IMG/VR virus record: IMGVR_UViG_3300048925_000637
Span: 1-21,203 of that record
Origin: a virus
DNA: 21,203 nt
Direction: 5' to 3' (one strand)
Position numbers and translations under genes: made by a program. The notes beneath the pieces are model-generated. The model did not search any database and was not told where the DNA came from. It was given only the letters and a program-made list of their open reading frames with translations. Shown here in pieces: positions 8,062 to 19,819 of the stretch. Each line of letters starts with the position of its first letter. The stretch's first letter is position 1.

Positions 8062-8082
8062 TGCTTTCACATGGAGATGGAA

Positions 8083-8541
8083 ATGGTCAAGCCGACGACC
8101 GAGAACTTTCACGAAATGGTCGTGGAAGTGGAATGGGAGGCCGGAAGCGGCACCTTCGCGAAATTCTGCGGCCTCACGTCGAACAATGTGAGCCGCCAGT
8201 CAAACATGAGCACGTCTGAGGTGCCCGCCGATTGCGATGACGAATCCAAGCCGTCGAACCTTGAGCGGGCGGTCCAATCGCAGGAGCAGACCGTCTCCGG
8301 AACCGGAGTATGGGCCGCCCAGAGCAATGGCAAAGCACTGCTCTGGTGGAGGTCCGGAACGACGAAGCTTGTGCGTATCGGGCATATGAACGCGGCCGTC
8401 GGTGACCCCGAATACGAGACCGGACCCGCCTATCTTACGCAGCTCAACAACTCGCGTGAGAAGGGTCAGAAGGTCACGGCCGAAATCCAGATCGAATTCG
8501 ACGGCCTGCCTGACATCACGGTCAAGGACGCCGGCCCCTGA
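8083..8541 (+). CDS. major tail (tube) protein
   Basis: Three ATGs occur in ATGGAGATGGAAATG; the third (8083) is chosen because GGAG at 8073-8076 is correctly spaced before it, while the first has no site. The 152-aa product is beta-rich with the opening NFHEMVVEVEWEAGSGTFAKFCGLT, a loop TSEVPADCDDESKPS and a C-terminal QKVTAEIQIEFDGLPDI strand, which fit a tail tube protein of the lambda/GTA kind. The place directly before the chaperone and tape measure genes supports this. The product should be one of the most abundant tail proteins. Confidence 0.75.
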   Translation: MVKPTTENFHEMVVEVEWEAGSGTFAKFCGLTSNNVSRQSNMSTSEVPADCDDESKPSNLERAVQSQEQTVSGTGVWAAQSNGKALLWWRSGTTKLVRIGHMNAAVGDPEYETGPAYLTQLNNSREKGQKVTAEIQIEFDGLPDITVKDAGP

Positions 8542-8945
8542 TGCGCGCCGCCGAAACCATTATCTGGGCCGGGGGCGAGCATCGCTTCCGGCTCGGCATC
8601 GGCGAGCTTCGGGCAATCGAGCAGGCTTGTGACGCCGGCGTGTCCGTCGTTCTTCTGCGTCTTCTCGGATCCCAATGGAAGCTGGACGACGTCCTCGCAC
8701 CCATACGGCTTGGCCTGCTCGGCGGCGGCATGCCGGATGCCGAGGTGCGCGCCACCATGGAGCGTGTCACGGGCACCAGCAGCCCTTTCGAACTCGCCGT
8801 GAATGCGGCCGGGATCCTGAAGCGTTTCATCATGTGGGAAACGGATGATGCGCCGGGGGAGCAAGAGGCGGGGGCGGATCAGAACCAAACCCGCTCCCCA
8901 ACGGACGGACCCGGTGGTCCGGATACTACCGCGGCGGAGCCGTGA
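8541..8945 (+). CDS. tail assembly chaperone, GTA-gp10-like
   Basis: The ATG overlaps the tail tube stop (TGATG), with AAGGA upstream. The 134-aa product has the pattern of the GTA-gp10/TAC_11 family: ETIIWAGGEHRFRLGIGELRAIEQACDAGV, then IRLGLLGGGM with the helix PDAEVRATMERV and PFELAVNAAGILKRFIM. Residues after about 100 (DAPGEQEAGADQNQTRSPTDGPGG) are low complexity, while the -1 frame in the same stretch is much more protein-like. Such chaperones wrap the tape measure during tail assembly and often exist as a short form and a frameshifted long form. Confidence 0.78.
   Translation: MRAAETIIWAGGEHRFRLGIGELRAIEQACDAGVSVVLLRLLGSQWKLDDVLAPIRLGLLGGGMPDAEVRATMERVTGTSSPFELAVNAAGILKRFIMWETDDAPGEQEAGADQNQTRSPTDGPGGPDTTAAEP
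8849..8944 (+). other. candidate programmed -1 frameshift region of the tail chaperone
   Basis: The -1 frame is open from 8849 (after a stop at 8846-8848) straight into the next gene at 8945, although it has no start codon except a GTG at 8942. Its translation includes RWSGYYRGGAVMGFSP, which runs smoothly into the downstream protein and resembles the second chaperone domain of GTA-like phages. Two G5 runs in the right phase (8855-8859 and 8870-8874, each G-GGG-G relative to the upstream reading frame) are possible slip sites. Slippage at the first would give a fusion of about 187 aa. Translational restart at TGATG remains the alternative. Confidence 0.5.
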
Positions 8946-9103
8946 TGGGCTTTTCGCCCCACCAGGTCGACGACATGACGACGTGGGAGTTCCACCACTG
9001 CCTTCAGGGTTTTGAGGACTTCCATTCGACCGAAGAAAAGCCGGCGCCCGGGATGGATGACGACCGGCTGGCCGAACTGGGCATCGAGGGGTTCGAAGGC
9101 TAG
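8945..9103 (+). CDS. tail chaperone second domain (52 aa, or C-terminus of frameshift product)
   Basis: The ATG overlaps the stop of the previous gene (TGATG), and 52 codons lead to TAG at 9101-9103. The protein MGFSPHQVDDMTTWEF plus HHCLQGFEDF is a close pattern match to the short rcc01693-type tail chaperones (GLSPxxFWxLTPxEL), which normally also have a W-x-x-L/Y-x-R-x-G segment in front; that segment is present here only in the upstream -1 frame. The tail is acidic (MDDDRLAELGIEGFEG). The stop overlaps the stop of the opposite-strand gene within CTAG. Confidence 0.7.
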   Translation: MGFSPHQVDDMTTWEFHHCLQGFEDFHSTEEKPAPGMDDDRLAELGIEGFEG

Positions 9104-9390
9104 TCGTCCGTTGAACGTGACGCCTTTCTGGCTTCGACACGATCAAGAAAGTCTTTGCGTTTTTGCGCTCGCACTTCTTTGCGGCGCGCCCGTTCCACCT
9201 CCGCCTCTTTCGCAAGTGAGGCGGCCAGCTGCTTCGCCTTTTCGAGGGCTAATTCAGAGTCTCGTTGTTGTTTTGCGAGCGAGAGGCTGGCCGCGACAGA
9301 TGATTGGTAGGCGGTGTAGCCGTAATGCGCACTGACAGCGATTACGCAGATGCATGCCGCCGCGACGAGAGCTTTAAGTATCGAGTTCAT
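9100..9390 (-). CDS. membrane-anchored coiled-coil protein, antisense within the tail operon
   Basis: On the minus strand, GGAGG (complement of 9395-9399) lies 4 bases before the ATG at 9388-9390. The 96-aa product has a hydrophobic N-terminus (ILKALVAAACICVIAVSAHYGY, residues 4-25; a signal anchor or signal peptide) followed by a long charged helix rich in Ala, Lys, Glu and Arg from about residue 35 on (LAKQQRDSELALEKAKQLAA). It occupies the whole space between the tail chaperone and the tape measure, where no plus-strand gene is evident, and meets the chaperone tail to tail at CTAG. Being opposite to late transcription, it probably has its own promoter in 9391-9470 and could be a lysogenic-conversion gene. 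No family is recognised. Confidence 0.7.
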   Translation of the reverse strand: MNSILKALVAAACICVIAVSAHYGYTAYQSSVAASLSLAKQQRDSELALEKAKQLAASLAKEAEVERARRKEVRAQKRKDFLDRVEARKASRSTDD

Positions 9391-9450: not shown

Positions 9451-12027
9451 ATGGCAGCGAATGACGACACCGCACGCCTGCTCGTCTCTATCGAGGCAAC
9501 CCAGCGTCGCTTCGAAAAGCAGATGGCCGCCATTGCCAAGTCGGGTGCGGACACGGCCGGCGGTATCGAAAAGCGCTTCCAGCGATCGAATGACAATGTC
9601 GCGCGCGGGTTTCAGACGGCGGGCAAAAAGGTCGAGCAGTCGCTCGGCGCGCAGCGTGCTGCGGTTTCCAACCTTTCCTTCCAGTTGAACGATATCGCGA
9701 TGGGGCTGGCGTCGGGCACCTCGCCCTTCACGATCATGGTTCAGCAGGGCAGCCAGGTTGCGCAGGTGTTCAACGGATCGGGTGGCGGCCTCATCGGCGC
9801 CGTCAAGACGCTCGGCGGCGCACTGGCGCAGGTCGTCAACCCGGTTTCGCTGGCCTCGTATGCCCTCATCGGCCTGACCGGCGTTGCCGTGCAGTACATC
9901 ACGACGCTCAGCACCGGTGTGCCTGACGTCGACGAATTTCTGAAAGAGCACGGCGAGGTCATCAAGTCGTTCGAGGCCGCATGGGGCGTGGCCGAGAAAG
10001 GCGCCAAGCAATACACGGAGGCGGCGCGGCAGATCGAGTTGCAGAAGCTGCGCGACGAGTTTGGCAGCACGCAGCAGGCGATCGACGCTCTTGCCGGCTC
10101 GCTGCGCGATGAGATCCTGAGCGGCGAGACAGCGAAGATCCTCGGCGGGTCGACAAAGAGCGTTTCCGATTTTAGCCGTGCGCTCACGCTCCTTGAGCAG
10201 GACATCCCCGACTTCCGCCAATTCTCGATCGAGATGGCGGCCATCGCCGGTATGACCGGCCTGCCTGAGCCCATCCGACAGCTCGCGACTGAACTTCGGC
10301 TGACGGCGCAGGAATCGATCCCGCTGCAGGAGCATCTTGAAAAGGTCGCAGGCCATCTCAAGGTGGTTCGGCTCACCGGGGAGCAGGCGCGCGAAGCGTT
10401 CGCCGCGCTGACGGCCCAGGCGCTCGGCCTCGGGACGGATGGTGGTGGCGCCGTAACCTCTGTCGCCGGCAAGATAAAGTCGGACTTGATCCCCGCGACC
10501 ATCGACGCGATCCAGAAGCTGGCCGAATACGCGAAGAACTATCGCTCGCTTCAGGACCAGGTTAACCAGTCACCGCTCGGGCAGCTTTCGCCGGTATTCT
10601 CGGGGGGCGGCCAGTTCCTGAACCCGGATCAGCTCCAGACATTCCGCGCAAGCGAAGAGCGGTACAAGGTCGCCGGCGAGAGTGCAGCAGCCTCGATGGT
10701 GAAGGGGTTCGAAAGCTTCATTTCGAAGGCGAAGTGGGATGTGAACGCCTATCGCGTCGGCTTCGGCTCCGACACGGTCACGCGCGCCAATGGCGTCATC
10801 GAGAAGGTGACGAAGGACACCGTCGTCACGCTGGAGGATGCGCAGCGCGATCTTTCGCGCCGTCTCGTTGAGTTCCAGGACGGCATCCAGACGGCGATTG
10901 GCGCTGATACGTGGCGTTCGCTGAATGATGCGCAGCAAGCCGCATTGACGTCGATCGCCTACAATTACGGCTCGTTGCCGAAGCGGATCGTTGAAGCCAT
11001 CCAGAATGGCGGCGGGCCGGAGGCGGTTGCCAAAGCGATTTCCTCCCTGGGCGCGGACAATGGCGGCATCAATCGCAACCGGCGTCAGCGGGAGGCGCAG
11101 TCCTACCTTTCGGGCAGCGGCCTTTCCCTCAAGGATGCTGGCATCGGCGGCCGTTCGCCGTCGGATATTTTTGCTGGCGACGTCCAGCAGGTGCAGGCCC
11201 GCATCGAGGCTCTGAAGGCTGAATATGCCGCACAGGCCACCCTGAACCCTCTGGTCAACGATTACGGCTATGCGGTTGCCAAAGCGCGGATCGAGCAGCA
11301 GCTCCTGAGCGAGGCTCAGAAGGCCGGGCTGGAAATCACGCCCGCGTTGCGCGAGCAGATCGCTGGGCTTGCCGAAAACTATGCTCGCGCAACGGTTGCC
11401 AGTGAGCAGCAGAAAGAGGCTCAGCAGCGTCTGAATGAACAAATGAAGCAGCTTCAGGGGCTTGGCAAGGAAGTCATGTCCGGCTTCCTTTCGGATCTGC
11501 GCAACGGCGCATCCGCCTCCGAGGCCCTGTCCAACGCCCTGAACAAGGTGCTCGACAAGCTGATCGATATCGGCCTCGAAAGCCTGTTCTCGGGTGGCTT
11601 GTTCGGCGGTGGCAAAGGTGGGCTGCTCGGCGGTTTCCTGATCCCCGGCATTCTGCACAAGGGTGGTGTGGCGGGCAGCGATGGCTATGGCCACGGCCGC
11701 GCGGTGTCGCCTTCGGCCTTTACGGGCGCCAAGCGCTACCACAAGGGCGGTATCGCCGGCCTCCAGCCCGGCGAGGTCCCGGCGATCCTTCAGCGTGGCG
11801 AGGTCGTGTTGCCGCGCGGCACCAAGGCCGGTGGTTCGCAGGCCGTGCATGTCACCGTGGGCGTTTCGACCGACAACAATGGAAACCTGATGCCCTTCGT
11901 CGAGTCTGTCAGCGACAGCCAGGTGAAGAAGGCCGCGCCTGGAATCGTGAACGCTGCGAGCCAGCGTGTAGTGCCCACAATGGCGGCATTTCAGAGCAAT
12001 AAGGCAGGTGCGGAATGGCGATCATAG
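9451..12027 (+). CDS. tape measure protein with internal GH24-like lysozyme domain
   Basis: The 858-aa product sets tail length and is ejected during infection. Residues 1-110 are coiled and carry the VSNLSFQLNDIAMGLASGTSPFTIMVQQG signature of lambda-type tape measures; 114-150 are hydrophobic; the C-terminus has the usual GG-rich motif HKGGIAGLQPGEVPAILQRG plus EVVLPRG (about 765-790). Between them, about 417-555 reads as a GH24-type lysozyme: E421 in KGFESF, D430 with E-x8-D spacing, AYRVGFGSDT, and SLNDAQQAALTSIAYNYG. The third catalytic Thr of T4 lysozyme aligns with Arg435 in my alignment, so activity is not certain. The ribosome binding site before 9451 is weak (GATGAGAA) and overlaps a small AAGAT/ATCTT hairpin. 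Confidence 0.9.
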   Translation: MAANDDTARLLVSIEATQRRFEKQMAAIAKSGADTAGGIEKRFQRSNDNVARGFQTAGKKVEQSLGAQRAAVSNLSFQLNDIAMGLASGTSPFTIMVQQGSQVAQVFNGSGGGLIGAVKTLGGALAQVVNPVSLASYALIGLTGVAVQYITTLSTGVPDVDEFLKEHGEVIKSFEAAWGVAEKGAKQYTEAARQIELQKLRDEFGSTQQAIDALAGSLRDEILSGETAKILGGSTKSVSDFSRALTLLEQDIPDFRQFSIEMAAIAGMTGLPEPIRQLATELRLTAQESIPLQEHLEKVAGHLKVVRLTGEQAREAFAALTAQALGLGTDGGGAVTSVAGKIKSDLIPATIDAIQKLAEYAKNYRSLQDQVNQSPLGQLSPVFSGGGQFLNPDQLQTFRASEERYKVAGESAAASMVKGFESFISKAKWDVNAYRVGFGSDTVTRANGVIEKVTKDTVVTLEDAQRDLSRRLVEFQDGIQTAIGADTWRSLNDAQQAALTSIAYNYGSLPKRIVEAIQNGGGPEAVAKAISSLGADNGGINRNRRQREAQSYLSGSGLSLKDAGIGGRSPSDIFAGDVQQVQARIEALKAEYAAQATLNPLVNDYGYAVAKARIEQQLLSEAQKAGLEITPALREQIAGLAENYARATVASEQQKEAQQRLNEQMKQLQGLGKEVMSGFLSDLRNGASASEALSNALNKVLDKLIDIGLESLFSGGLFGGGKGGLLGGFLIPGILHKGGVAGSDGYGHGRAVSPSAFTGAKRYHKGGIAGLQPGEVPAILQRGEVVLPRGTKAGGSQAVHVTVGVSTDNNGNLMPFVESVSDSQVKKAAPGIVNAASQRVVPTMAAFQSNKAGAEWRS

Positions 12028-18535: not shown

Positions 18536-18772
18536 TCATGGAAGCCGAATCGCCTCGTTAAACGAGACAACCTCGACAATCGTACCTGCCTCATCGGCTA
18601 TTTCGAACCATCGACCGTCAACGGTTTGGCCACGCGACATGGCCTGGGACAGAGCATCCCTTATGGCCGCGATTGCCCCCGAACGTGCGAGCGCGCTCGA
18701 TCCGAATTCCAGCCCCTCCTCGTCAGGTTGGAAGTTAAACGCAGTCCTGATGTGGAAAAAGAACTTCGGCAC
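18536..18772 (-). CDS. DUF6894 family protein (78 aa)
   Basis: The start is a GTG on the minus strand at 18772, with AGAGG about 7 bases upstream; the longer frame to 18856 adds an Arg-rich stretch that does not look native. The product matches the DUF6894 pattern common in Rhizobiales: VPKFFFHIRT, an acidic D-E-E-G-L-E-F turn, an Ala-rich helix (SGAIAAIRDALSQAMSRG) and a closing WFEIADEAGTIVEVVSFNEAI. The biochemical role of the family is not known to me; members are small and usually occur in many copies per genome, so this one may have been captured from a host. It is convergent with the winged-helix gene and divergent from the endolysin gene. Confidence 0.75.
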   Translation of the reverse strand: MPKFFFHIRTAFNFQPDEEGLEFGSSALARSGAIAAIRDALSQAMSRGQTVDGRWFEIADEAGTIVEVVSFNEAIRLP

Positions 18773-18991
18773 AGTGCCACCTCTTCTCAAACAGCCAGGA
18801 GAAAAGGGGCTGCGTCGGCGCAAGCGGCTGCTGCGGACCCCGACGCGTTCATGCACCTACAAACACCGAGCCTACCAGTTTGTTCCTCGACGTTACATCG
18901 CTCATTGGAGCCAAAGGGCGACTACCCGAGCGAAGCGACGCCCGTGTCATGCCGGTCTCACGGCAACATCACCCCAACGAAGGAATCCTCC
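18773..18991. other. divergent intergenic region before the lysis cassette
   Basis: This 219-base gap separates the minus-strand DUF6894 gene from the endolysin gene and should hold promoters for both, but I find no convincing -35/-10 pair. It contains two weak stems (CAGCC/GGCTG around 18790-18813 and GGGCG/CGCCC around 18917-18944, the second enclosing GAGCGAAGCGA). The endolysin ribosome binding site AAGGA is at 18980-18984. No further coding sequence is supported. Confidence 0.4.
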
Positions 18992-19819
18992 ATGAACCGC
19001 TCCGCATTTTACGCGTCGGTGCGCGAGCGCGCGCCCGGCGTTTTCGGCACGTCCATCAGCCAGAGCCAGGTGCAGGGCACCGAGGCCATCCTTGACGAGG
19101 CAGAGCGGCGAGGAACGCCACTTCGGCAACTGGCCTATATCCTCGCCACCGCCTACCACGAATCCGCCCACACCATGCAGGCGGTGCGCGAGACGCTAGC
19201 CAAGACCGATGCAGGCGCGATTGCCGCGCTGGAAAAGGCTTGGAAGACCGGCCAGCTGACTTGGGTGAAGACGCCCTACTGGCGCAAGGACGCGGACGGC
19301 AAGTCGTGGTTCGGCCGCGGGCTCGTGCAGATCACCCACAAGGCCAATTACCAGAAGCTCGGCCTGCTGATCGGCGTCGATCTCGTGAAAGATCCGTCGA
19401 AGGCGCTGGAGCTTTCCACGGCAGTCCAGATCCTGTTCGTTGGCGTGGAGCTCGGCAGCTTCACCGGCAAATCGCTCTCCGACTACATCAGCGACGGCCG
19501 GGCCGAGTACGAGGGCGCGCGCCGAATCGTGAACGGCACGGATAAGGCCGCGCTGATCGCCGGCTATGCGAAGGCCTTCGAGCGCGCGCTTGTGGCGGCA
19601 GGCTACAGCCCGAAAAAGCCTTCTCCGGGCACTACCCCGAAACCCTCGGAACCCAGCACCTCCAGCGCGAAAGAGCTCGGTTTGGGCACCGCCCCCGAAT
19701 GGGGGCCAGTCTCGCCCGGTACGGCCGCTGCCGGCGCCGGAATCGTCGCCCTCATCGCCGCTGCCGGCGCCTATCTCTCCAACCTGCCGTGCTCTTGGTT
19801 CGGCTTCCTGTGTGGGTGA
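18992..19819 (+). CDS. endolysin, GH19/chitinase-like, with C-terminal hydrophobic segment
   Basis: ATG 18992 has AAGGA 7 bases upstream; the open frame before it is not protein-like. The 275-aa product has a GH19-type lysozyme-like domain over about 1-205: E57 in ILATAYHESAHTM is the expected catalytic Glu, GRGLVQITHKANYQKLG (108-124) is the family substrate-binding signature, and RRIVNG (178-183) completes it. A Pro/Ser/Thr-rich linker (206-225) leads to a hydrophobic stretch AAAGAGIVALIAAAGAYL (about 245-262) and a final Cys-containing tail. The enzyme should cut the glycan strands of peptidoglycan. No N-terminal signal is seen, so export through the holin is likely, though the C-terminal segment may tether it to the membrane. 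Confidence 0.85.
   Translation: MNRSAFYASVRERAPGVFGTSISQSQVQGTEAILDEAERRGTPLRQLAYILATAYHESAHTMQAVRETLAKTDAGAIAALEKAWKTGQLTWVKTPYWRKDADGKSWFGRGLVQITHKANYQKLGLLIGVDLVKDPSKALELSTAVQILFVGVELGSFTGKSLSDYISDGRAEYEGARRIVNGTDKAALIAGYAKAFERALVAAGYSPKKPSPGTTPKPSEPSTSSAKELGLGTAPEWGPVSPGTAAAGAGIVALIAAAGAYLSNLPCSWFGFLCG

Follow-up and report, generated by a model that had tools for sequence, protein, structure and literature searches.

Frameshifted tail chaperones are a textbook feature of tailed phages, and the slip heptamer of lambda gpG/gpGT is GGGAAAG. The chaperone roles of gpG and gpGT are treated in the available text of a review (PMC5009743). In the accessible text of the PRFect study, GGGGGAA is the sole form of a 'fivetwo' motif found in about a thousand actinophage chaperone genes; the authors put forward an idea of G:U re-pairing for this string and report that XXXYYY is missing from most annotated frameshift overlaps (PMC10885494). 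GGGGGAA was also proposed as the slip site in corynephage phi16, according to the text available for that phage (PMC5506516). The R. capsulatus phage RcZahn is described in the accessible part of its paper as one that, unlike most of the phages there, lacks clear evidence of frameshifting (PMC8601537). The nearest named relatives of the locus studied here are Sinorhizobium phages of the 16-3 type. In the accessible text of the AP-16-3 paper, p016 goes under the label of hypothetical orphan, and the word 'frameshift' was not found there (PMC10460002). No description in 16-3-type phages of the slip site studied here was found in the accessible open-licence literature, and among the matches listed for GGGGGAG together with frameshift, the sole phage paper by title has the string in a ribosome binding site in its available text (PMC3483164).

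The window, which is the whole stretch of DNA analysed, is a 21,203-base virus sequence in which terminase, portal, capsid and tail genes were found. As shown in Table 1, two overlapping reading frames for tail assembly chaperones (TAC1 and TAC2) follow the gene for the major tail protein and precede that for the tape measure, the position of tail chaperones. In a profile search, TAC1 matched PF11836 with an E value of 2.6e-21 (75.9 bits, cut-off 27.8), which places it in Phage_TAC_11, and it also matched phrog_8985 (E 5.3e-33). It ends at the TGA at 8943-8945. The -1 frame is preceded by a TGA at 8846-8848, is open over 8849-9100, and is closed by a TAG at 9101-9103. The initial annotation had stated that this frame is open for 32 codons before an internal ATG and that the zero frame is of low complexity there. 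Both statements were read directly in the sequence from 8849 onward: the -1 frame upstream of the ATG and onward reads CAGGARGGGGSEPNPLPNGRTRWSGYYRGGAV-MGFSP, and the zero frame over the same stretch is the tail DDAPGEQEAGADQNQTRSPTDGPGGPDTTAAEP*. The ATG itself (8945-8947) overlaps the TAC1 stop as TGATG, and an SD-like GGAG lies 5 bases upstream of it. Judged by the comparison of sequences described below, the locus is very probably a programmed -1 ribosomal frameshift by which a single start codon would serve two overlapping tail chaperones, as the initial annotation had proposed.

Table 1. Features of the tail chaperone locus and its neighbours (window coordinates).
Feature	Position	Strand	Description
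Major tail protein gene	8071-8541		Upstream neighbour of TAC1
TAC1 gene (gene 1)	8541-8945	+	Phage_TAC_11 family ('GTA-gp10'), N-terminal tail assembly chaperone; 134 aa when read in the zero frame
TAC1-TAC2 fusion (predicted)	8541-9103	+	187 aa: 106 zero-frame codons, 1 junction residue and 80 codons from 8861
-1 frame	8849-9103	+	From 8861 encodes TAC2, the predicted second chaperone domain of the fusion, a remote Phage_TAC_6 relative
Slippery heptamer G_GGG_GAG (candidate)	8855-8861	+	Zero-frame codons CCG GGG GAG
Spacer, 8 nt	8862-8869	+	Heptamer to hairpin, from RNA folding
Likely stimulatory hairpin	8870-8898	+	8870-8877 pairs with 8891-8898; alternative register GGCGGG/CCCGCT
Internal-ATG ORF	8945-9103	+	Formal 52 aa; phrog_18467 begins at the same Met
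Tape measure gene	9451-12027		Downstream neighbour of the TAC1/TAC2 pair

Relatives were collected with the TAC1 protein, an alignment of the -1 peptide, a broad TAC1 alignment, of which 80 loci were kept out of at least 531 confirmed matches, and named phages. Of the 165 sequences gathered, L001 is a second copy of the window, and one (L060) was without TAC1, leaving 164 with TAC1. TAC2 was present downstream in 160 of these 164, and they were reduced to 111 distinct, non-contained loci, the window included. The sequences without TAC2 were L085 and L008, which are one record whose contig changes gene inside TAC1; L113, whose contig ends, yet with GGGGGAA and the -1 peptide visible; and L147, which has TAC1 and neither the heptamer nor TAC2. 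In 110 of the 111 distinct loci, TAC2 overlaps TAC1 and is read in the -1 frame. The exception was Rhizobium phage RHph_X2_26 (L022, 1965-2537), in which both domains are in a single frame. Among the 80 loci found by TAC1 alone, TAC2 was in the -1 frame in 77 and in the +1 or 0 frame in none, and three were without it (L085, L113, and L147). A single-base change would join the two frames, as they are naturally joined in L022, and a sequencing or assembly indel might thus have split one gene. However, the same -1 arrangement recurs at 110 distinct loci of diverse origin, complete phage genomes among them; these relatives refute such an artefact, the chance of which we regard as practically negligible. 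The initial annotation had named as the contrary case homologues whose -1 frame is interrupted by stops before the ATG, and none were seen; the frame was open into TAC1 in 110/110 non-fused loci.

An in-phase slippery heptamer was present within the overlap in all 110 non-fused loci. GGGGGAR was in phase in 99 of the 110 and in the other phases in none, and the 11 loci without it carried a canonical G_GGA_AAR or A_AAA_AAR in phase. Counted over all of these loci, canonical GGGAAAR/AAAAAAR was in phase in 14, against 2 and 2 in the other phases. In 19,168 control codons from other ORFs of at least 150 codons in the same loci, GGGGGAR occurred twice in phase and twice out of phase. The canonical X_XXY_YYZ pattern, which is usual and not necessary, was found in L018, L025, L061, L069, and others; the site of the window is G_GGG_GAG, and the initial annotation had rightly seen no textbook heptamer there. 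The position of the site was narrowed by short overlaps. In L016 (same contig as L032), the -1 frame opens 12 bases before the end of the TAC1 stop codon, so that the frames overlap by four codons, in GAG CCG GGG GAG TAG, and equally short overlaps were found in L030, L032, and L079. Because the overlap is so short, the slip in L016 must lie in this string, and the slip site of the window is therefore placed at 8855-8861.

When the loci were grouped into 34 clusters at 70% TAC1 identity, 26 clusters had GGGGGAR, 6 had GGGAAAR, and 2 had AAAAAAR. In a FastTree tree, of which 40 of 104 inner branches were weak and in which L163, having both motifs, was scored as GGGAAAR, the site type changed at least 8 times over four groups, with the fusion counted as one. 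The starred branches of this tree alone force at least 3 changes for GGGGGAR. L026 and L135 (Labrenzia phage vB_LagS-V1 type) have two in-phase candidates, GGGGGAG plus a GGGAAAG directly before the TAC1 stop; the placing of the latter is also found in some gene transfer agents (GTAs). Two further signals were set aside. The bias towards GGG at the slip (98/108 Gly codons vs 19% in the TAC1 domain) is partly circular because the sites were picked by motif, and an upstream SD-like stimulator (GGAG, GAGG, or AGGA 4-20 nt upstream in 60/110 loci) was a count without a control.

The initial annotation had listed two G5 runs, at 8855-8859 (CCG GGG GAG) and 8870-8874 (GCG GGG GCG), as being in the correct phase for a -1 slip. 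Both are in that phase, but they differ in role: the conserved slip site is the first run, whereas the second makes up the 5' arm of a hairpin further on, because 8870-8877 pairs with 8891-8898. We examined RNA folding in 48-nt segments compared with codon shuffles. When the segment began at the base following the heptamer, folding gave a mean z of -2.09 over 110 loci, with 63% below -1.5. The mean was -1.87 and -0.85 at offsets +5 and +8, and twelve further offsets, spanning -240 to -60 and +11 to +180, gave means between -0.65 and +0.17. Pairing was counted in 53 relatives picked from the 69 with a CCGC arm. In one register of the stem, 91.8% of cells paired vs 33-65% when the arms were slid, with 3/318 cells doubly changed; in the other register, 73.3% paired vs 27-67% when slid. 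As the GC pairs of the stem hardly vary, covariation is weak. These results point to a likely stimulatory structure downstream of the heptamer, which is backed by position and stability and not by strong covariation.

Slippage at the second G5 run, or at both runs, would draw on its GCG GGG GCG context, which also contains an in-phase G_GGG, and on an in-phase GGGG run lying 9-24 nt downstream of the heptamer and inside TAC1 in 60/110 loci. However, roughly half the loci do not have such a run, and it falls after the TAC1 stop in L030, L032, and L079. Its A-site codon is also variable (GCG, ATA, ATG, or AAG), and the run forms the hairpin arm. We rejected the second run as the slip site on its position past the stop, its patchy presence, and its role in the hairpin, and consider this reading extremely unlikely. 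Slippage of RNA polymerase on the G run would give the same product, and a G5 run could in principle permit it. However, the run has just five Gs, and RNA polymerase slips inefficiently on short runs. GGGAAAA is used in relatives, and the hairpin that follows closely downstream is typical of ribosomal slippage. Transcriptional slippage is thus exceedingly improbable as the source of the second frame.

We examined the conservation of TAC2. The length from slip to stop was 67-103 codons overall and 73-84 codons in 104/110 loci; the TAC1 stop lay anywhere from 4 to 142 nt past the slip in the 110 loci, and the length of TAC2 was nonetheless steady. The initial annotation had suggested comparing substitutions in both frames. 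Where both frames are coding, 4794, 3932, and 6649 substitutions fell at the first, second, and third codon positions of the -1 frame, and amino-acid differences were 0.379 in the -1 frame vs 0.478 in the zero frame, all counted over sequence pairs that are mutually non-independent. Past the TAC1 stop, the differences were 0.361 in the -1 frame vs 0.602 in the zero frame, on the same type of pairs. Third positions of the -1 frame are thus favoured, and its product is better conserved than that of the zero frame.

A profile comparison of TAC2 with the Phage_TAC_6 alignment of GTAs gave an hhalign probability of 90 (E 1.6e-6), and the match begins at a conserved W upstream of the ATG of the window. 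No Pfam match to Phage_TAC_6 (PF09550) above the cut-off was found for the window; 1 of 61 members matched, at E 0.0041. An AlphaFold model of TAC2 built with 56 sequences had a mean pLDDT of 78.9 and a pTM of 0.55, with helices at residues 20-30, 34-39, 42-56, and 68-73. The first predicted helix, W20-M30, corresponds to window 8915-8947 and has a mean pLDDT of 94 over residues 21-30. A Foldseek search with this model returned nothing at E 0.001 or better, with 79 viral matches (best 0.48) and 2 PDB matches (best 4.6).

These data bear on whether TAC2 could be a separate protein made by termination and re-initiation at the ATG at 8945, with no fusion. The window would suit such a route, as its ATG overlaps the TAC1 stop and has an SD-like GGAG, unlike most relatives, and both phrog_18467 and p016 of phage 16-3 are annotated as separate short proteins. 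However, the residue in the column of this ATG is Met in only 36 of 110 rows and Ile, Leu, or Val in 72 (33, 26, and 13, respectively). In 99/110 loci, no ATG, GTG, or TTG occurs from the slip to the tenth codon of the domain; 7/110 have an ATG shortly ahead of the TRW motif, and 4/110 have a GTG or TTG. The conserved W..Y..GA upstream of the ATG also belongs to the domain by profile comparison and forms the first predicted helix, which a start at the internal ATG would lose according to the model, because the last residue of the helix is the Met of this ATG. The initial annotation had taken the -1 peptide upstream of the ATG for part of the domain, and its conservation in relatives, the hhalign match, and the predicted helix agree with this. 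Re-initiation as the main route was rejected on conservation, and we consider a wholly separate TAC2 very unlikely. The 52-aa ORF is probably not the main product, and some re-initiation at 8945 is possible as a source of a side product.

We propose the following mechanism for frameshifting at this locus. Most ribosomes would read through CCG GGG GAG and stop at 8943-8945, giving the 134-aa TAC1. A minority would pause at the hairpin while the P site holds GGG and GAG occupies, or is moving into, the A site. The tRNA-Gly would then shift from GGG to GGG with perfect re-pairing, and the tRNA-Glu, or the empty A site, would move to GGA; the anticodon UUC of tRNA-Glu facing GGA would form G-C, central G.U, and A-U pairs. 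After the slip, the -1 frame would be translated to 9100, giving the TAC1-TAC2 fusion, whose length of 187 aa by codon arithmetic agrees with the estimate of about 187 aa in the initial annotation. By analogy with lambda gpG/gpGT, TAC1 may form a coat on the tape measure protein, and the less abundant fusion may recruit tail tube protein through its TAC2 part. The residue at the junction, Glu or Gly, would distinguish tandem slippage from slippage in the P site only. Tandem slippage at 8855-8861 predicts the tryptic junction peptide FIMWETDDAPGEAR, and P-site slippage before acceptance of Glu predicts FIMWETDDAPGGAR.

The initial annotation had called the pair GTA-like. This holds for the domain family. 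Marker genes of GTAs were not found, as GTA_TIM, DUF2460, and Rcc01698_C, by which GTA membership was judged, had no match in the 17 window ORFs scanned. We also examined Phage_TAC_6 loci from alphaproteobacterial genomes, a sample partly biased to relatives of one locus, which gave 62 distinct TAC1/TAC_6 pairs and one further locus without the TAC_6 motif. Three of the contexts were verified as true GTA clusters by the same three markers. The frame relation was -1 in 52 of the 62 pairs, 0 in 5, and +1 in 5. In the 50 of 52 -1 pairs that could be placed, start codons were sought in the interval that begins where the TAC1 domain ends, or where the frame opens, and that runs to the conserved W: 30 pairs had no ATG, GTG, or TTG, 12 had an ATG, and 8 had a GTG or TTG. 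GGGAAAG was in phase in 11 of the -1 pairs and out of phase in none (5977 nt), and in 8 pairs it stood directly before the stop of gene 1. Ten of the 11 pairs with GGGAAAG were without a start codon, and L192 has an ATG. CCCTTTC occurred 12 times in phase and never out of phase, a bias that is partly expected because the string partly follows from a conserved Pro-Phe. No hairpin signal was seen after GGGAAAG or CCCTTTC in the GTA-type pairs (mean z -0.06 and +0.57, respectively), and 21/52 of the -1 pairs had none of the heptamers searched for. In a distant group (L204, L205, and L206), TAC1- and TAC_6-like domains are fused in one frame.

GTA g10/g10.1 (Phage_TAC_11 and Phage_TAC_6) is thus like the window in being a homologous pair that is mostly -1 related. 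It is unlike the window in its heptamers, which are GGGAAAG, CCCTTTC, or none of those listed, in having no hairpin signal, and in that some pairs have a start codon of their own. Frameshifting of g10/g10.1 via GGGAAAG is a lead and not a result; if it is true, analyses that go gene by gene overlook a frameshift gene in some GTA clusters. On balance we lean, without great confidence, towards a combined reading in which GGGGGAR would be a true tandem slip site, with tRNA-Glu on GGA via a middle G.U, that was swapped several times with GGGAAAR at one homologous position, and in which g10/g10.1 of real GTAs would be -1 frameshifted in some lineages, where GGGAAAG lies directly before the g10 stop and g10.1 is without a start codon and hence not a gene of its own.

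Several other features were observed in and around the locus. The tape measure protein has an embedded Phage_lysozyme domain at residues 419-538 (E 1.9e-7). The ORF at 18626-19819 has a weak Glyco_hydro_19 (chitinase-type) match, barely above the cut-off (E 2.9e-6), and its product is possibly an endolysin. Between TAC2 and the tape measure gene lies a small minus-strand ORF (9100-9390) with a hydrophobic N-terminus, whose stop overlaps the TAC2 stop. Similar single-helix ORFs are found at the same place in L019-L021, L043, L045, and L050 (e.g. MDTWLKMLIASACVVIIGGGGYL...). Spanin-like PHROG matches were weak (E 0.013 and higher), and the ORF could be a moron or a membrane exclusion gene.

The kind of event described here is ordinary, and the heptamer is unusual. 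What is new is that these phages of alphaproteobacteria carry GGGGGAG and that it is exchanged with GGGAAAR. A natural exchange of GGGGGAR and GGGAAAR at one position is an evolutionary test of the function of a non-canonical heptamer, and it matters for frameshift predictors restricted to XXXYYYZ. The frameshift reading also assigns a function to a short gene that has been skipped or called an orphan.

Like lambda gpG/gpGT, the locus would use one start for two chaperones, with the -1 slip falling close to where gene 1 ends; it likewise stands ahead of the tape measure gene, and the short form is expected in excess. Unlike lambda, the window has GGGGGAG and not GGGAAAG, and its families are Phage_TAC_11 and a TAC_6-like domain. 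As far as the available texts describe them, the GGGGGAA sites of actinophages and phi16 share with it a five-G heptamer, the same type of gene, and the same proposed G:U re-pairing. The loci studied here differ in that GAG dominates, whereas PRFect reports GGGGGAA alone for this motif, and in that relatives swap the site for GGGAAAR; the phages are also different ones, as the named relatives infect Rhizobiales. PF11836-type proteins are labelled 'tail tube protein' in NC_011103 (p015; L019, 2001-2354), MW960032, MW960037, and PP058680. However, a separate major tail protein is encoded just upstream, and the frameshift argues that these proteins are tail chaperones. In phage 16-3, the annotation reads 'tail tube protein' and 'p016', and the second domain is unannotated in AP-16-3 and NV1.1.1. 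Rhizobium phage 16-3 (p015/p016) and Sinorhizobium phages AP-16-3 and NV1.1.1 have the same gene pair as the window, the same CCG GGG GAG, and the same -1 relation.
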